A program made the translations under genes and the position numbers. Below, piece after piece: positions 1-5,469 of a stretch of 5,469 bases of DNA. The notes beneath the pieces are model-generated. The model saw nothing but the letters and a program-made list of their open reading frames with translations. It was not told where the DNA came from and did not search any database. The stretch comes from Bacteroidaceae bacterium (GTDB taxonomy: Bacteria; Bacteroidota; Bacteroidia; Bacteroidales; Bacteroidaceae). Position 1 is the stretch's first letter; each line of letters opens with the position of its first letter. The stretch spans positions 1 through 5,469 of the forward strand of contig CABIXF010000090.1 of assembly GCA_902362595.1 (NCBI GenBank). Direction: 5' to 3'.

Positions 1-82
1 GATGCACTGTGCCCCCTTTTTACTAACGATGCAGATTATTTTCGCTTCTGTATCATATAGGCGCGTAGTTGCGGATTTGAGG
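1..82 (+). mobile_element. End fragment of a second IS1380-family copy, inverted
   Basis: These 82 bases are the exact reverse complement of 3877-3958, the transposase-downstream end of the complete IS in this window. The match stops at base 82, where the terminal sequence (GAGG outward, CCTC read inward) ends; base 83 differs. The rest of this copy would lie left of the window, with its transposase on the plus strand. No coding sequence of the transposase is included. Perfect identity suggests recent duplication of the IS. That this is a separate IS copy rather than a lone end is inferred. Confidence 0.88.
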
Positions 83-350
83 TATTCAAAAGTTTCAAGC
101 AGTTTTATAGCTTTCTTTTCGCCCTTTATTTGCTTACCCTTGACATCAAAACTACGCACTCCACGTGGCTCGAGTTGATGGAATTGATGTCTTTGGCTAA
201 TTTTAGAGCCCGACGTATGCGGAAACATATCTATCAATTTTTTACTGTTTTTTGAGAAAACGAGGTATGAGGGAACATATCGAAGTAATAATCACCAATA
301 ATACGCATTAAAAACTAATCACTGTTGTATTTAAACTATTCGAAAAGGAT
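83..350. other. Gene-poor stretch between IS end and ant(9) fragment
   Basis: I recognise no gene here. On the minus strand one frame is open from the stop at 294-292 down to base 1, with an ATG at 228-226. It would encode MFPHTSGSKISQRHQ... and then a lysine-rich stretch, continuing in frame into the IS end. I know no family for it, so it may be the tail of an older gene cut by the IS, or chance. The stretch from 83 to about 290 looks less AT-rich than the ant(9)-like DNA that follows, suggesting a junction near 290-340. No terminator or tRNA is evident. Confidence 0.4.
215..281. repeat. Imperfect 17-bp direct repeat, 50 bp apart
   Basis: GTATGCGGAAACATATC at 215-231 and GTATGAGGGAACATATC at 265-281 agree at 15 of 17 positions. 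Read on the minus strand both give GATATGTT(T/C)CC(G/T)CATAC. Spaced repeats of this kind occur near the ends of some insertion sequences and at regulator sites, but nothing else here supports either role. Function unknown. Confidence 0.35.
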
Positions 351-902
351 TTAAATATTAAGGGAAGACTCTATAGATCTTTTCAAATAATTAACGAGTT
401 CAATTATCTCAGTCTCCATTCCTTCCCACTTGTCATCATAATCTTCCAAATAAGCCTTTTTTGCTTTTTCAAGTAAAGTAGCATGCTCTTTGGCTAATTT
501 AGGTATCGCCCATTCAGCAGCCTGATCTTTTGAGCAAATTCTACCGGAAGAGGATGTCAGCCACATTCTGGCTAAAGTTAAAATCACATTGCGTTCGTCA
601 CCTTCAATGCTAGCTATCAACCCGGGTAAGGATTCTTTAATCGCCCTTCGAATATCTGTCATTGGTACAGGCTCAATCACTTCTGTTGCCTCTGGTCCGA
701 AAAGGTTAATACTATTTTCTCTTAATTGAGATAAAAGAATTGCTAAATCGGGATCATAAGTTGGCTCAGGAATTGCTCCCTTATCAAACTGCTCCCTTAG
801 CCACTCACCATACATAAATTCATGTTTAGGAGGAAATTTCCAAGGGACAACATCCTTTTGATTTATGACCGTAACTTCAAGTGGTCTAATAGCATTTATG
901 TT
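351..902 (-). pseudogene. ant(9): ANT(9)-type spectinomycin nucleotidyltransferase, 5'-truncated
   Basis: The minus-strand frame reads N-A-I-R-P-L-E-V-T-V-I-N then VVPWKFPPK, YGEWLRE, YDPDLAILL, GDERNVILTLARMW and AAEWAIP, ending SLNI and a TAA stop. These blocks match the C-terminal two thirds of ANT(9)/AadA-type aminoglycoside nucleotidyltransferases, and the wording is closest to ANT(9)-Ia as I remember it (spectinomycin 9-O-adenylylation). Homology continues upstream of the ATG at 815 to about 902, so that ATG is internal. The missing part is roughly the first 90 residues, which hold the GS...DxD nucleotide and metal site, so the remnant should be inactive. Upstream it joins directly to the truncated murA-like gene. 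The frame itself is intact and unmutated, suggesting recent loss. Confidence 0.85.
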
Positions 903-1553
903 TCTATATAAGGCAAAGAGGATAATTTTTCTGTCACTGATTGAATAATATTATATCTCAGGTTTAAAGTTAGCGAAATTGTTTTCTTGTTTAAATCTAA
1001 AAATGTCAAATTTGTATTATTTATTAAAGCTAACGTGGAATATGTTATAATTTCACTTATGCATTGAGTTAGATTAAATTCAATATACTGATTGGAAGAA
1101 GCCATAACATTTCCACTGCAGACAATAGAATTATCAGAGATGTCAATTTTTTTACCTATTAAGCGCAAAAAATCAATCATATCATAGACATCCGTTTTTA
1201 AATATGGATTTTTTATGATAAATTTTTGTTTGTTAACAGATAAAAGTAATGCCGTTTTAGTGGCCCCTCCTACAAGCGGTCCACTCAAATCTTCGCTAGA
1301 GTATGAAAAATTTTTTATATCTAACTCGGTTATATCGCTATTGTCACCAAAATTACCTATTATTCTATTAGATTCTATACTTATTTTGTGATTAAAACAT
1401 TCAATCACTGAAGCAATATGAGAAAATGGTCTATTATGTGAATCTATCGAATCACCAATTTGACAACCTCCAGAACCATAATATTCAAATTTTCCTAATG
1501 CAATTAATAGCGCCGGGCACAAATACATAGAACCATGAATACACTTTCCTAAA
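896..1553 (-). pseudogene. MurA-like enolpyruvyltransferase, C-terminal piece of split gene
   Basis: This is the downstream part of the gene interrupted by the cassette at 1554-2819. It carries the MurA-type GGCQIG block, whose Cys aligns with the catalytic Cys115 of E. coli MurA, then SHNRPF, LSGPLVGGATKTALLL (compare SVGAT in MurA) and DVYDMIDFLRLIGKKI. Joined to 2820-3133 with one copy of the 9-bp duplication removed, it gives one open frame of 320 residues. Family members are about 420 residues, so roughly the last 100 are missing; the frame ends TAA at 898-896, where ant(9)-like sequence begins. The frame also extends upstream to an ATG at 1603, but its first 17 residues are encoded by the cassette end and are not native. 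Catalytic competence is unlikely. Confidence 0.8.
1545..1553. repeat. Target-site duplication, left copy (TTTCCTAAA)
   Basis: TTTCCTAAA is repeated at 2820-2828, directly outside the other end of the cassette. Both copies are read as L-G-(K/N) codons of the murA-like gene, and removing one copy plus the cassette restores the frame. The duplication is 8 or 9 bp: symmetric ends would favour 8 bp (TTCCTAAA) with a mismatch in the outermost repeat base, and an imperfect 10 bp is also possible. Confidence 0.85.
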
Positions 1554-1554
1554 G

Positions 1555-1578
1555 TCTCTGTCCGAGATAAGTGTTGGT
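1555..1578 (+). repeat. Cassette terminal inverted repeat, left
   Basis: It begins TCTCTGTCCGAGATAAG, and its 24 bases pair with 2796-2819 with one G/A difference at the 19th base. Similarity stops sharply after TTGGT. Base 1554 (G) is either the outermost cassette base or part of the duplicated target. Confidence 0.88.
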
Positions 1579-1628
1579 ATGCATAACTGACCTGTTTATT
1601 CATTTTCTATGAATGCCCTGGGTAAACG

Positions 1629-1660
1629 AAAAGGAACAAGGTATATTTCATCCTTGTTCC
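1629..1660 (-). terminator. Rho-independent terminator of the methyltransferase gene
   Basis: On the minus strand GGAACAAGG (1660-1652) pairs perfectly with CCTTGTTCC (1641-1633) across a 10-base loop, followed at once by TTTTCGTTT. It lies about 70 bp past the stop codon and inside the cassette, so the cassette closes its own transcript before it reaches the murA-like remnant. Confidence 0.8.
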
Positions 1661-1686
1661 TATCGGTCAGTATGTGCTATTCAGTT

Positions 1687-1706
1687 CAACAAATTGGAAT
1701 TTGTTG
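1687..1706. repeat. Perfect 9-bp stem palindrome after the methyltransferase stop
   Basis: CAACAAATT and AATTTGTTG are separated by two bases, and outer TCAGTT / AACTGA segments (1681-1686 and 1715-1720) can extend the structure. There is no T-tract, so it is not a classical terminator. It may stabilise the 3' end of the mRNA or be a subterminal site of the cassette; neither can be shown here. Confidence 0.5.
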
Positions 1707-1732
1707 CTCCGTCAAACTGAAAGTTTCAAGCG

Positions 1733-2563
1733 TTATAGACTTCCCACAAATATCTCTGCATCAATCGTCAAAGTTTTTAGCTTTTTGAAATCAATCTCAG
1801 TTTTATCTACATGGAAGAGCAGTGGGGTCATGTCTGCAAAAATTTTAATATCCTCTAACGGCATTTCATATGATTCTGAAACTCTTTTTTGGTAAATAAC
1901 AGAATACTGCTTCTTGAATAAGTTAATCACATTCTCATTGGAATACTCTTGATTTTTCAAATGTTCTTTTGCAATGTTTCTGAACTCCATCAGATGTTTA
2001 TTCCCAGGAATAACCTTTACAATATAGCCGCTATCCGTCAGAACTCTATTGAACTCCAAATAATTAGCTGGTGTAAATATGTCCAGTATACAGTCTACTG
2101 AGTGGTCTCTAATTGGCATATTTTCCAAATCACCCACAAACCACTTTATAGACTTACTACCGTCTCTTTTTGAAGCAAGGGAAATGGCATCTTTTGAAAT
2201 ATCAAAAGCAACTATATCTGCTTGAAATAGTTCTTTGATTTTTCTAGAATAATATCCTTCACCACATCCGACATCAAGAATAGTTGTTATGTTTTCAAGC
2301 TTGCTCAATATATGTGTTATCTCCGTAAGAATATGTGAATAGTATCCCTTTTCTAAAATATCCATTCTGCTTTCAAAAGAAGTTCTGCTATAATGCTTAG
2401 ATTGCTTTTGATTTAATGCAAAATTCACATATCCTAATTTAGAAATATCGAAACAATGCTTATTACTACACAGCAAACTATTGCCTACCATCTTTAACTT
2501 TCGTTTACATATTGGACAACGAAAAAGCTTTTCGCTGTCATTAAATCTAATAATTTTATTCAT
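1733..2563 (-). CDS. rlmA: RlmA-family 23S rRNA (guanine-N1)-methyltransferase
   Basis: The 276-residue protein has the full RlmA layout. An N-terminal zinc site has Cys16, Cys19, Cys32 and His36, with the same spacing as E. coli RlmA, followed by the FDISKLGYVNF block. The Rossmann-fold SAM domain has DVGCGEGYY at 97-105, acidic Asp121 and a PGNKHLMEF block from 186. Family members methylate N1 of G745 (RlmA-I) or G748 (RlmA-II/TlrB) in 23S rRNA helix 35, at the macrolide tunnel; TlrB contributes tylosin resistance. I start at 2563 because GGAGG (2573-2569) sits 5 bases before this ATG; a longer frame from 2629 would begin inside the attenuator. It is the cassette's only large gene. Target base and phenotype are inferred, with G748 likelier given the Gram-positive character. 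Confidence 0.92.
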   Translation of the reverse strand: MNKIIRFNDSEKLFRCPICKRKLKMVGNSLLCSNKHCFDISKLGYVNFALNQKQSKHYSRTSFESRMDILEKGYYSHILTEITHILSKLENITTILDVGCGEGYYSRKIKELFQADIVAFDISKDAISLASKRDGSKSIKWFVGDLENMPIRDHSVDCILDIFTPANYLEFNRVLTDSGYIVKVIPGNKHLMEFRNIAKEHLKNQEYSNENVINLFKKQYSVIYQKRVSESYEMPLEDIKIFADMTPLLFHVDKTEIDFKKLKTLTIDAEIFVGSL

Positions 2564-2564
2564 G

Positions 2565-2638
2565 ACATCCTCCATTATTACATTCTTGACCGAAAGCGAG
2601 TTATGTAATACGGATGTACCGCAACACAACTCGCGGTA
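2565..2638 (-). promoter_or_regulatory. Translational attenuator with two exclusive folds
   Basis: In the uninduced fold, UACCGC (2638-2633) pairs with GCGGUA (2622-2617). Downstream, UAUUACAU (2610-2603) pairs with AUGUAAUA (2583-2576) and ACAUCC (2617-2612) pairs with GGAUGU (2570-2565), tying up part of the GGAGG ribosome binding site. In the alternative fold, GAGUUGUGU (2632-2624, the loop of the first hairpin) pairs with ACAUAACUC (2606-2598) and breaks the second helix. The first arm starts right after the leader stop codon, so a ribosome stalled on the leader would cover it and favour the alternative fold, freeing the start site. Helices were found by eye and no energies were calculated. 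Confidence 0.8.
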
Positions 2639-2665
2639 TTATCTTAATCTCATATATGCTGTCAT
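2639..2665 (-). CDS. Leader peptide MTAYMRLR (macrolide-stalling type)
   Basis: This 8-codon frame, ATG to TAA, has a near-ideal binding site (GAGGAGGTGA, with AGGAGG 7 bases before the ATG), far stronger than expected by chance. The peptide ends Met-Arg-Leu-Arg. The Arg-Leu-Arg (+X+) motif is the known signal at which macrolide-bound ribosomes stall on ErmD-type leaders; the ErmD leader begins MTHSMRLR, so M1, T2, M5, R6, L7 and R8 coincide. Its stop codon abuts the first attenuator arm. The inferred role is drug sensing: translated freely without drug, stalled at Leu7/Arg8 with a macrolide, which would open the methyltransferase start. Confidence 0.87.
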   Translation of the reverse strand: MTAYMRLR

Positions 2666-2702
2666 CTTATCACCTCCTCAAATTCAAGTTTGTATAACTA
2701 TT

Positions 2703-2738
2703 TTATTGCATTATAGCATACTTTGGTCTGCTTTTCCC
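2703..2738 (-). promoter_or_regulatory. Promoter of leader and methyltransferase, extended -10
   Basis: TATAAT at 2715-2710 is a perfect sigma-70/SigA -10 box preceded by TG one base upstream, giving the extended -10 TGCTATAAT. The expected -35 position holds only TGGGAA/GGGAAA, a poor match, which the extended -10 could offset. A start near 2703 would give about 37 nucleotides before the leader ATG. This is not the Bacteroides TAnnTTTG type, pointing to a Gram-positive origin. Confidence 0.7.
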
Positions 2739-2795
2739 ACTCCAGAGAAAATTTCTTTGTCGATAATTATCCTACCTATAGGAATATTTTTATTC

Positions 2796-2819
2796 ACCAA
2801 TACTTATCTCGGACAGAGA
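2796..2819 (-). repeat. Cassette terminal inverted repeat, right
   Basis: Read on the minus strand it starts TCTCTGTCCGAGATAAG, matching 1555-1578 with a single A/G difference. It supplies the TAA stop that ends the N-terminal murA-like frame after four foreign residues (LCPR). Confidence 0.88.
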
Positions 2820-2828
2820 TTTCCTAAA
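2820..2828. repeat. Target-site duplication, right copy (TTTCCTAAA)
   Basis: Identical to 1545-1553 and directly outside the right inverted repeat. The T at 2820 could instead be the outermost cassette base; see the left copy. Confidence 0.85.
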
Positions 2829-3133
2829 AAGAAAGGAATGTTGGCATTACATATGGTACTTGCGTCAATAAACAAACGTTTGTTATATATTTTTGCAGTA
2901 CCACCTAGTTCATTTATTATTGCGATAAAAACATATGTATCACTTACTATAGGTGGATTAACAATAACAGTCTTCATTTTGAGTGCAATAGTTAATGCTA
3001 TTATTTGAACCATTGAATGTTTGTATCCATCCAAACTTAAGGAGGCATTAACTGGACTATTTTTGCTCACACTTATATTAATATTTTTATTTTCTCCTTT
3101 AAACAAAAAATCGGATAAACATTTATATTCCAT
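2820..3133 (-). pseudogene. MurA-like enolpyruvyltransferase, N-terminal piece of split gene
   Basis: This is the first 104 residues of the interrupted gene, with a plausible start: AAGGA seven bases before the ATG, 78 bp after the preceding gene. It contains GYKHSMVQIIALTIAL, aligning with the GAKNAALPIL block of MurA, then a repeat-fold block (SDTYVFIAIINELGGTAKI) and LFIDAS. His39 stands where MurA has the conserved Asn23, so this is a divergent paralogue rather than housekeeping MurA. MurA adds enolpyruvate from PEP to UDP-GlcNAc in peptidoglycan synthesis; the substrate here is unknown. The frame runs into the cassette end and stops after LCPR. Confidence 0.78.
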
Positions 3134-3211
3134 AATAGATTCCTTGTAACTCTAATTGTTGATAGACAAAAAAACAGATCGCCTATGCATCACAAACAAA
3201 ATACGGTTAAT

Positions 3212-3876
3212 TTAGTGTTTTGTTTTGTAATTAATTTTAGAAAATGTATTTTTGTGCTTGCTTTTAGGATTCTCTTTCTTGCTTTTTGAACGATTGTGAA
3301 AACCTAAATCCTTCCCCATTGAATTGTGTTGCTTATTCTTCTCGTTTGTGTTACTAACCAACTGACCGCAGGCAGCTTTGATGTTATTACCTCGTGATTC
3401 TCTCATTTTTACTTCTAAACCAGCCGCTTCAAGTCGCAATTTAAATGCAACTAATTGTTGTTTGTTTGGCCTGTTAATATTGCAATTTGCGGTATCATTA
3501 TATTGCAAAAGATTTATCAAAACATTTTTCTCACGAAACCATCTTCCTAATTGACGTACATCAGTTGCTTTATCATTTAGACCAGGAATCAATAAATAAG
3601 CAATTGTTACTTTTCTGTTATGTCTTTCCGAATATGATAAAACAGATTCAACAATCTTATTTATGTCATAACCTTTCATGTGAGGTATAATTATATCTCT
3701 TGTTCTTTGATTTGTTGCATGAAGAGAGAGGGTGAGTTGTATCTTCAGATGTTCTTCTCTTATTTTTTTTAATTGTTCTAAAGGACCTACTGTCGAAATA
3801 TTAATTCCATCTGTGGGGAAATTAAGCCCATTTCTATCTCTTAGTATATGAATTGACTTAATTACATTATCATAAT
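3212..3876 (-). pseudogene. Cfr/RlmN-type radical SAM rRNA methyltransferase, 5'-truncated
   Basis: The frame is open from the IS edge. It reads DYDNVIKSIHIL, INISTVG, LTLSLHATN, RKVTIAYLLIPGLND, INLLQYN and SRGNNIKAACGQL, in family order. The Cys of AACGQL (codon 3370-3368) is the methyl-carrying cysteine of RlmN and Cfr, which methylate A2503 of 23S rRNA. The N-terminal part with the CxxxCxxC iron-sulfur motif is missing, because IS1380 insertion cuts the gene at 3876; the remnant is inactive. RKVTIAYLLIPGLND resembles Cfr's RKVYIAYIMLPGVND more than typical RlmN, but I cannot place it firmly. After AACGQL comes an unusual basic, Asn/Lys/Ser-rich tail of about 48 residues. A frame from ATG 3679 is internal. 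The lost 5' part may lie beyond 5469. Confidence 0.82.
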
Positions 3877-3891
3877 CCTCAAATCCGCAAC
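3877..3891 (+). repeat. IS1380-family terminal inverted repeat, transposase-downstream end
   Basis: CCTCAAATCCGCAAC pairs with 5455-5469 except at positions 4 and 7. The same end recurs in inverted orientation at 68-82. Confidence 0.87.
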
Positions 3892-4046
3892 TACGCGCCT
3901 ATATGATACAGAAGCGAAAATAATCTGCATCGTTAGTAAAAAGGGGGCACAGTGCATCGAATGTCACCATAAAGACATATAAACGCCCCTTACCCCACCA
4001 TGCGACTTGAGGCAATACGCAAAGTCACGACCATAAGTTGTCGGTG

Positions 4047-5333
4047 TTATCCAAAGTCATTCTGGAACACATCAGCATAAGCGTTGTTGCATGAATAGAT
4101 ATTCAGCACATACTGCCTTGATGTCCTGCCCCATTTGGCTGGCACAGAGATGAACTTGAAGACAAACGCCTTGATGCGGCTTGTTGCTTTGAGTCCGAAC
4201 CTCTTCACGTCAAGCCTCGCCATGATGAATTTATAGAAGTTGCGTATGAGTGCCGTAAGCAGAAGAAACACCGTGTTTTCTCCCATGAAGGATTTTGGAA
4301 GCCTGTTCCAGCCGAATCCGTTATTCATTTCATCGAAGATGCGTTCCTTCCCTCCACGGAGGTTATAGAATTTGACAATCTCTTTCTCGGAAGACTCGTA
4401 GTCATTTGTAAGGATGCAGCGGTAGGTGTATTCGCCTTCCCACAGGTCAATCTCACCGTCAATTCGCTTCTGCCTTTGGATTACAAGACGGTATGCCCTC
4501 CCTTTCCATTTCTCAACAAGAATGGAGTTCAGTTCAAACTCAATGCCGCCCAGTTCCTCTCTCTTCCACCCTCTGAGTGCAAAGATGTCATCGTAGAGCG
4601 AACCGCAGCGGTTGGCGCGGATATAGAAAGTCATGCAATGCTTTCCGACCTCTTCCACAATTTCCTCTGAGCAGGATCCGCAATCTGCCCTGAAACGATT
4701 GACTGTCAATCCTTTCTGTTCAATCCTCTCAAAGAATCTCCTCAACGTGTCCTTCTGGTGGAAACGAACGTTAGTGTTGCCGTCGCTGTTCTCTATGCCG
4801 ACAATCATGTCGCCAATGACAGCCACACCTGGACGGTACCCGAGAAACTTCTTGTATGTGGGTTTCGCATCAAACTTCTCAGCCTCTATGAACTGGTGGT
4901 CGAAGTCAACGTCATACCCCTCGCCCTCTTTCAGCTGCCCTGTGGACAATAGGCAATTGAGGAGCAGTGTATTCAGCATGTCTGCCGTGTTGAAGTCGTA
5001 GGTCTTGCCAGTGTCGGATGTGTAGGAAATGTTATCCTGGGTCAGTTCCTTTATGGCTCTGAGAATCGTGTCGGCACTGCATGTGCGAAATGTCGGATGA
5101 AGCGAGAGGTGGTACATCAGATGAGTGGTGACATCCTCTATGCATGAGCCGCCACAGAAATAAACGCTCATAAGCGAACGGATGATTTCGCTGTATTGAT
5201 AACCATACAGCCTGCATCTCATACCGAGAGTTGAGTCGATTACAGATGAGAGATTGGAGTCAAATAGCTCCATTATTGAAAAAATTCCTCCAAAAGGAGA
5301 GAGTTTCTCAGATTTTATTGCTACCTTTACCAT
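4047..5333 (-). CDS. IS1380-family DDE transposase
   Basis: The 428-residue protein is full length for the family. It has the expected DDE features of an RNase H-fold transposase: an acidic first strand (YDVDFDH, Asp141/143/145), FRADCGS with Asp217, and the C-terminal signature YNLRGGKERIFDEMNNGFGWNRLP with Tyr323, Arg326 and Glu330 in Y(2)R(3)E spacing. It cuts and pastes the IS at its CCT(C/T)AA ends. The start at 5333 follows a Bacteroides-type promoter by about 35 bases. No frameshift or internal stop is present, so it is probably active. It points toward the passenger genes, so readthrough would reach the Cfr-like remnant. Confidence 0.95.
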   Translation of the reverse strand: MVKVAIKSEKLSPFGGIFSIMELFDSNLSSVIDSTLGMRCRLYGYQYSEIIRSLMSVYFCGGSCIEDVTTHLMYHLSLHPTFRTCSADTILRAIKELTQDNISYTSDTGKTYDFNTADMLNTLLLNCLLSTGQLKEGEGYDVDFDHQFIEAEKFDAKPTYKKFLGYRPGVAVIGDMIVGIENSDGNTNVRFHQKDTLRRFFERIEQKGLTVNRFRADCGSCSEEIVEEVGKHCMTFYIRANRCGSLYDDIFALRGWKREELGGIEFELNSILVEKWKGRAYRLVIQRQKRIDGEIDLWEGEYTYRCILTNDYESSEKEIVKFYNLRGGKERIFDEMNNGFGWNRLPKSFMGENTVFLLLTALIRNFYKFIMARLDVKRFGLKATSRIKAFVFKFISVPAKWGRTSRQYVLNIYSCNNAYADVFQNDFG

Positions 5334-5369
5334 GTCTGTCGGGTTTGATACATATTTTGATTTGCAACA

Positions 5370-5401
5370 CTAAGATAGGTGAAAAATCTGACATGGCAAA
5401 A
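5370..5401 (-). promoter_or_regulatory. Bacteroides-type promoter of the transposase
   Basis: On the minus strand TTTTG (5401-5397) is followed after 19 bases by TATCTTAG (5377-5370). This matches the Bacteroides -33 TTTG / -7 TAnnTTTG consensus with one mismatch in the -7 box. Transcription would begin about 30 bases before the transposase ATG. Confidence 0.55.
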
Positions 5402-5402
5402 T

Positions 5403-5427
5403 CCTGAGCAACTTTTTGTTGCTCAGG
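5403..5427. terminator. Perfect 10-bp hairpin at the transposase-proximal IS end
   Basis: CCTGAGCAAC and GTTGCTCAGG are separated by TTTTT. Read on the minus strand the stem is followed by ATTTTG, so it could stop transcripts entering the IS from outside and keep transposase expression low. It lies just upstream of the transposase promoter. The T-tract is short, so termination is only probable. Confidence 0.6.
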
Positions 5428-5447
5428 TACTTAAAAAGTTATATTTG
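5415..5447 (+). promoter_or_regulatory. Outward-facing Bacteroides-type promoter at the IS end
   Basis: TTTG (5415-5418) and TATATTTG (5440-5447), an exact TAnnTTTG match, are separated by 21 bases, with the start expected close to the IS border. Bacteroides IS1380-group elements are known to switch on neighbouring resistance genes (cfiA, nim) from such outward promoters. It points away from the passenger genes in this window. The -33 box overlaps the hairpin at 5403-5427. Confidence 0.55.
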
Positions 5448-5454
5448 TAATAGT

Positions 5455-5469
5455 GTTGCGGAATTAAGG
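5455..5469 (-). repeat. IS1380-family terminal inverted repeat, transposase-upstream end
   Basis: Read inward it gives CCTTAATTCCGCAAC, pairing with 3877-3891 at 13 of 15 positions. The window ends exactly at its last base, so the target duplication on this side cannot be seen. Confidence 0.87.

Follow-up and report, generated by a model that had tools for sequence, protein, structure and literature searches.

A probable macrolide-sensing translation attenuator ahead of a mobile RlmA-family methyltransferase gene

We analysed a 5,469-nucleotide (nt) stretch of DNA from a Bacteroidaceae bacterium (assembly GCA_902362595.1, contig CABIXF010000090.1, positions 1-5,469), referred to throughout as the window, which carries on its minus strand a gene for an RlmA-family methyltransferase (the rlmA-like gene) preceded by a short leader open reading frame (ORF). 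The leader and the covarying hairpins between it and the gene, together called the element, are likely to act as a translation attenuator that senses macrolides and controls a mobile gene, as sequence comparison and predicted folding suggest. The element itself is real and conserved. Its parts and the gene behind it are as follows (hairpins predicted by folding, the other features read from the letters):

2670..2678, minus strand: Shine-Dalgarno (SD) sequence of the leader, AGGAGGTGA, strong
2639..2665, minus strand: leader ORF MTAYMRLR with its TAA stop (ATG 2665-2663, MRLR codons 2653-2642, TAA 2641-2639)
2617..2638, minus strand: hairpin A (1:2), pairing 2638-2631 with 2624-2617; predicted OFF fold, of which the outermost pair varies across clades
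2596..2634, minus strand: hairpin B (2:3), pairing 2634-2619 with 2613-2596; covarying, and the predicted ON fold
2571..2614, minus strand: hairpin C (3:4), arms 2614-2603 and 2583-2571, predicted to hide part of the rlmA-like SD
2569..2573, minus strand: SD GGAGG of the rlmA-like gene
1733..2563, minus strand: RlmA-family methyltransferase of 276 residues (ATG 2563-2561), with Zn_ribbon_RlmA and methyltransferase domains

The leader has eight codons, lies 75 nt from the rlmA-like start and, with its strong SD and the stall motif MRLR, has the make-up of erm-type attenuators, in line with an earlier interpretation of this DNA (the sequence-only reading). That reading had likened it to the ErmD leader, MTHSMRLR. 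The likeness holds for six of the eight residues, but Mef(E)L (MTASMRLR) matches at seven and is, judged by sequence, the closest known leader, followed by that of ErmD. In a 2 Mb first-order Markov sequence trained on related loci and read on both strands, an SD followed by a 6-12-codon ORF ending in R/K-x-R/K occurred ten times, an RxR ending three times and an MR(L/I)R ending not once; chance seldom produces such leader-like ORFs. Among 16 rlmA-like loci, the leader is identical in all 11 that reach far enough upstream.

Downstream of the leader, predicted hairpin B is incompatible with both A and C, which makes a four-arm switch with one form hiding the gene SD: in the predicted fold, C pairs the first three SD bases. 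The mutually exclusive 1:2 + 3:4 and 2:3 hairpins of the sequence-only reading were recovered as predicted folds, and their pairings are conserved. In an alignment of 13 distinct elements (A4), compared with slid controls and 500 shuffles, 99.0% of the 208 cells of B were paired, with two-sided changes at two pairs (equalled by 5/500 shuffles), and 94.9% of the 178 cells of A+C, again with two such pairs (22/500); the slid controls reached at most 58.2%. The outermost A pair is U-A in six, C-G in three and A-U in four sequences, with one gap moved in four rows, and broken cells occur in locus L008 (A and B) and in L064 (B and C). As the alignment rows are related, the significance from shuffles is overstated, and the two-sided changes are the better evidence. 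The region stands above chance because it is conserved and covarying in homologues and not because of its folding energy. An Rfam scan of the window gave no match at gathering scores.

We then followed the element in other genomes with a covariance model built on hairpin B, using overlapping genome sets whose centres had been chosen for carrying the element. Matches were found in 4/391 genomes for the class of G004, 1/18 for the family of G079 (the centre itself), 18/397 for the family of G004, 9/300 for the family of G003, 6/225 for the order of G305 and 2/229 for the phylum of G004. A nineteenth match in the family of G004 (L069, 32 bits) was rejected, as it has no leader. These amount to 30 distinct species-level genomes; for six (G001, G003-G007), carriage of the gene had been established beforehand. 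An RlmA-family ORF stands behind the element in all 30, although at L064 the contig stops 32 residues into it, and an intact eight-residue leader ending in MRLR is present in 29, with changes confined to residues 2-4. Leader types and enzyme identity were compared: MTAYMRLR goes with 100 or 91%, MTAHMRLR with 64% and MVTFMRLR with 47%. A close rlmA (E up to 1e-60) occurs in 19 of the 397 genomes of one family sample and 18 of these carry the element, one of the 18 (G601) on another contig. The comparison of homologues, set in advance as a possible refutation, thus left the claim standing, MRLR and the pairings both being conserved.

The proposed switch resembles the two-state hairpin logic of the erm translation attenuation scheme. 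In the absence of drug, the ribosome would complete the leader and depart, and hairpin A, forming first on the emerging RNA, would block B; C would then form and cover the start of the rlmA-like SD. With drug, as for ErmDL and the tlrB leader of Bacillus subtilis, the ribosome would stall at Arg-Leu-Arg, Leu7 occupying the P site, and mask the 5′ arm of A, whereupon B would form, C could not, and the SD should be exposed, an outcome predicted by folding and clearest in two related clades. The enzyme, to judge from its family, would methylate G748 or G745 of 23S rRNA and so protect against tylosin-type macrolides.

Nine sequences were folded up to the start codon (the window, L001, L007, L008, L042, L044, L065, L068 and an RNA from a Paraclostridium plasmid described below). 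The predicted OFF fold, A+C, is the minimum in L065, L068, L042 and L044, by 8.0 kcal/mol in L065 and 4.8 kcal/mol in L042, and lies within 0.4 kcal/mol of B in L001 and the Paraclostridium RNA; the L001 element, one loop base different from that of the window, has A+C at -24.0 and B at -23.6. In L065 and L042, a mask reaching 3-6 nt past the leader stop made the SD cheaper to open, at 0.2-1.2 instead of about 5.5 kcal/mol, although the mean unpaired SD fraction was only 0.36-0.46 at masks of 5-6 nt. If Leu7 sits in the P site and the ribosome edge lies 12-15 nt further on, these 3-6 nt would be masked, which fits stalling at Leu7. In longer RNAs, the first three SD bases were 0.0-0.14 unpaired in six of six when A was enforced, and with an 8-nt mask the SD was open in L001, L008 and the window, its first bases being unpaired at about 0.9 or more.

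A number of observations weigh against an attenuator of this kind. In the alignment, the pair-type count of A+C was equalled by 387 of the 500 shuffles, a slide of -2 gave five pair types versus four for A+C (covariation score 0.088 vs 0.096), and some C pairs are broken in L064, L067, L044 and the MVTFMRLR clade. The leader of L086 is frameshifted by a one-base insertion, and in L093 (56% identity), the exception among the close relatives, the last 14 bases of the leader stand directly before the gene and the hairpins are lost. The folding energy of the region is unremarkable (z -1.46; 17/200 shuffles as good). In the window, B lies at -23.5 and A+C at -20.8 kcal/mol, a difference of 2.7 in favour of the ON fold, and B is also the predicted minimum in L007 and L008. 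Masks of at least 7 nt shut the SD of L065 and L042 again; in window RNA cut at the start codon, the SD was 0.68 unpaired without a mask vs 0.32-0.53 with masks of 5-8 nt, and the free window RNA in its longer form was likewise open (0.95). Of the six longer RNAs with an 8-nt mask, L065 and L042 had a closed SD and the Paraclostridium RNA a partly closed one, leaving three clearly open. Since masking results differ with mask length and RNA, the outcome hangs on the exact footprint of the ribosome. The sequence-only reading, in which the repressed fold covers the methyltransferase start, is borne out in part: C is predicted to pair with part of the SD, but the repressed fold is not the predicted equilibrium of the window, and masks of 3-6 nt eased opening of the SD in L065 and L042 while masking gave no further opening in the short window RNA.

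A last point on this side concerns the leader, whose residue 4 is Tyr versus Ser4 of ErmDL. According to PMC8298421, ErmDL stalls with Leu7 in the P site and Arg8 in the A site, and any replacement of Ser4 other than by Ala or Gly reduced erythromycin stalling. Because of residue 4 and the tlrB precedent, the likely inducers would, by analogy, be tylosin-type drugs or ketolides and not erythromycin. Arg6-Leu7-Arg8 stand at the same peptide positions as in ErmD; unlike ErmD, the gene is of RlmA and not Erm type, the leader stops at Arg8, and 75 nt separate leader and gene versus 276.

The strongest alternative is that the window copy is effectively unregulated, with the ON fold at equilibrium, expression without drug and the leader a relic, which we consider unlikely. 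It draws on the lower energy of B and the lack of further opening in short window RNA, as well as on natural variants that have no separate leader or have lost the element. Among 684 protein relatives, of which 21 were examined among 120 listed, the leader reads through into the enzyme in P0005-P0009 (14 contigs), with five different residues in place of its stop, and in P0002-P0004, P0010-P0015 and P0018, together 19 contigs with six distinct upstream sequences, other sequence replaces the leader; both observations come from proteins only. Assembly errors are possible for the forms seen in single contigs, less so for the form seen in nine. On the other side, the leader is intact in all but one of the 30 genomes, the pairings covary, A+C is level with B in L001, and A would form first during transcription. 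As B is the equilibrium fold of the window, its OFF state would have to be kinetic, resting on A forming first; the findpath barrier from A to B is 11.0 kcal/mol (heuristic).

Another alternative is that the leader senses the drug while control is mainly transcriptional, by premature termination, as for mef(E) and in part for B. subtilis tlrB; we regard this as improbable. Its appeal is that Mef(E)L, the nearest leader, acts by transcription attenuation on efflux genes (PMC4335068) and that tlrB uses both modes: according to PMC6851288, ribosomes translating the nine-residue tlrB leader stall at its final RYR with tylosin but not with erythromycin, and this lifts both termination and SD hiding. 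However, a simple pattern scan of 1540-2830 found no terminator-like site on either strand, and in the nine folded sequences hairpin C ends in the SD rather than in a U run. The likeness to mef lies in seven of eight leader residues and the macrolide resistance context; unlike the peptides, the RNAs that follow the two leaders show hardly any similarity (one model match at L001 1932-2072, E 0.18).

The translation attenuator proposed here has a precedent in tlrB, the former yxjB, which encodes RlmAII in B. subtilis (PMC6851288). Macrolide-sensing leaders before RlmA genes are thus already known, and the statement of the sequence-only reading that no RlmA-family gene had been described with such control fails because of this tylosin-stalled RYR leader. 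The tlrB study also aligned 180 predicted leaders before tlrB homologues, and MTAYMRLR may be among them. Both systems combine an RlmA-family gene, a leader of 8-9 residues ending in R/K-x-R/K (here RxR, before the stop) and a structure that hides the SD. They differ in that tlrB has a terminator that depends on NusA, a NusG pause and a single long hairpin that hides the SD, whereas here there is no terminator-like site in the simple scan and there are two mutually exclusive covarying folds and a mobile unit; the leaders differ too, Mef/Erm-like MTAYMRLR here versus MIIQFIRYR in tlrB.

We next considered the enzyme. It passes the RlmA zinc ribbon model PF21302 (46.6 bits, cut-off 27) and the S-adenosylmethionine (SAM)-dependent methyltransferase domain model Methyltransf_25 (54.2 bits, cut-off 27), and its best solved relative is the Escherichia coli RlmA structure 1p91 (E 6.8e-29). 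The best NCBIfam match, the RlmA (G745) model, scored 157 bits, below its cut-off of 303, and the G748 models all stayed below theirs (Erm32 73.6/550, ChrB 70.9/620, MyrA 47.2/625). Because the domains pass while the curated NCBIfam scores fail, the protein is, by its domains, a divergent RlmA member of no named subtype. PADLOC hits to mad2 (45.5 bits) and BstA (16.5) were set aside as general methyltransferase likeness.

Methylation in helix 35 (G745/G748) is usually viewed as a housekeeping function or as self-protection of antibiotic producers, and RlmA-type enzymes are common chromosomal rRNA methyltransferases; that this is a housekeeping gene with a chance leader and chance hairpins is nevertheless hardly credible, the modest folding z-score notwithstanding, given the identical protein in unrelated genera, inverted repeats with target duplications at three sites, resistance neighbours and a covarying element in nearly all close relatives of the family sample. 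The gene looks instead like an acquired resistance gene, to judge from its sequence context, because it is near-identical in distant hosts, mobile, flanked by resistance genes and preceded by a probable drug-sensing leader.

The mobility is visible in the DNA itself. The gene lies in a 1.27-kb unit on the minus strand (1267 bp, 2820-1554), bounded as follows:

2821..2828, minus strand: upstream copy of the 8-bp target duplication TTTAGGAA, read from the sequence
2796..2820, minus strand: terminal inverted repeat at the upstream unit end, found by an 18-mer match
1554..1578, minus strand: terminal inverted repeat at the downstream unit end, found by the same match
1546..1553, minus strand: downstream copy of the 8-bp target duplication TTTAGGAA

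The 25-bp inverted repeats agree at 23 of 25 positions, and two exact 18-mer matches occur in the window and none in 200 shuffles. The 8-bp duplications were found at three sites: TTTAGGAA in the window and L002, AAAATTAA flanking the unit in each of L007 and L008, and AAAGAAAA in L005. The L007 copy contains a further insert of about 1.5 kb, and in L007 and L008 murA-like stretches adjoin without the unit, which constitutes a natural empty site at the DNA level. In the window, two MurA-like stretches (2804-3133 and 896-1603, minus strand) are split by the unit. Besides the rlmA-like gene, the only ORFs of at least 60 residues overlapping 2820-1554 are two antisense ones of 73 and 175 residues, neither of which was compared with families, and no transposase was recognised inside the unit. 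Mobile insertion cassettes, for example those with qnr, lack a transposase and consist of inverted repeats that enclose a passenger resistance gene and are bordered by target duplications. The unit has these features; unlike the qnr cassettes, its repeats are different and no autonomous partner was found. The repeat word, with up to two mismatches, occurs in 6 of 16 genomes and exactly in three viral contigs, mostly at the ends of the unit, and this search of the 16 genomes and the viral contigs identified no partner element that would move it in trans. At L113 4259-4294, in a viral contig, the inverted repeat stands beside unrelated sequence, possibly another unit with the same ends; the IMG/VR viral contig L114 (1-244) starts with the end of an rlmA copy and the downstream repeat, at about 90% identity.

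In 11 of the 16 loci the protein shows 100% identity (rounded) across 274 residues or more; these loci come from Anaerosporobacter, Flavonifractor, Suipraeoptans, Faecalicatena (two), Oscillibacter, Phocaeicola and four metagenome-assembled genomes (MAGs) named Ruminococcaceae, Lachnospiraceae, Gastranaerophilales and Proteiniphilum, host names of short and MAG contigs being open to misassignment. At L001 and L012 only a core is present, which starts shortly ahead of the leader SD and runs about 20 bases beyond the gene. Recombinase and IS91-type genes interrupt the unit in L006; there (2569-8147, Faecalicatena contorta ET52), a tyrosine recombinase and IS91-family transposase pair stands on each side of the core, the families being established for the first pair.

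DNA searches with gene and leader returned one plasmid record (distant mode), which matches the element alone, and none in phages (distant mode) or E. coli (near mode only); a core pattern of the element had no match in viral contigs. A match of the element alone to two records of one E. coli phage (E 0.01, 34 bases) was judged to be chance. Script patterns, which are weak, revealed no R/K-x-R/K-ending leader upstream of the distant rlmA in L018 (E. faecalis) and L019 (Lysinibacillus), of the clostridial copies L029 and L073, or of the RlmA-family gene of L017; L028 and L074 fell outside what the script recovered. The latter (1734-2555) belongs to Staphylococcus plasmids of about 3 kb and has about 35% identity.

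The element was also found ahead of a different enzyme. On the Paraclostridium bifermentans plasmid pHD0315_2-5, an element 78% identical over 87 aligned positions, with the leader MIINFMRIR, precedes a radical SAM gene of RlmN/Cfr-like type, which scores 261.6 bits with the RlmN model (cut-off 290) and stands behind hflX and a mef-like pump. As RlmA and RlmN/Cfr enzymes are unrelated families, the switch was most likely exchanged between them as a module, as far as sequence comparison goes. A wider proposal, to which we give about an even chance, is that the RlmA-type and RlmN/Cfr-type families have swapped an RNA switch that senses antibiotics and works as a plug-in, and that its RlmA form is a transposase-less cassette spread across phyla as an unrecognised, acquired and drug-inducible resistance of the tylosin type. 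Among the open-licence papers listed by literature searches, no title or abstract opening described the unit. What appears to be new is the four-arm switch with no terminator found, the near-identical copies in distant hosts, the 1.27-kb inverted-repeat unit with its 8-bp duplications and no recognised transposase, a switch common to unrelated methyltransferase families, and the natural variants in which the leader is fused to the enzyme, replaced or missing. If the role in resistance is borne out, surveillance would gain one more family; the covarying element offers a ready test of whether one RNA switch can serve unrelated rRNA methyltransferases.

The resistance context claimed earlier holds up: the gene is mobile, and its copies have efflux, lincosamide and aminoglycoside-type neighbours. 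In L001 (541-3296, Anaerosporobacter faecicola), lnu(C) and mef(A), both above the NCBIfam cut-offs, lie upstream of the core, and this mef(A) has its own leader at 1952, MTASMRLR, the same as Mef(E)L. The window holds the C-terminal part of an ANT(9) gene (351-815, minus strand) and the 3′ part of an RlmN/Cfr-like radical SAM gene (3212-3876, minus strand, cut off near 3876). RlmN/Cfr-like ORFs of 367 residues occur upstream of rlmA in L002 and L009. In L042, a leader-like MLHSMRIR with a strong SD (1901, minus strand) precedes an RlmN-like gene (1451-468) by about 450 nt, near an rlmA of the MVTFMRLR type.

Within the unit, one further feature was noted by eye:

2710..2715, minus strand: TATAAT, a possible extended -10 (TGCTATAAT) of a unit promoter

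A promoter scan found six promoter-like sites versus 6.4 expected, TATAAT 2710-2715 not among them. At the far side of the window (4047-5333, minus strand) lies an IS1380-family transposase region with at most 84% DNA identity to plasmid copies from Phocaeicola, Segatella and Bacteroides, and inverted copies of one stretch (6-82 and 3877-3953) bound the resistance segment.
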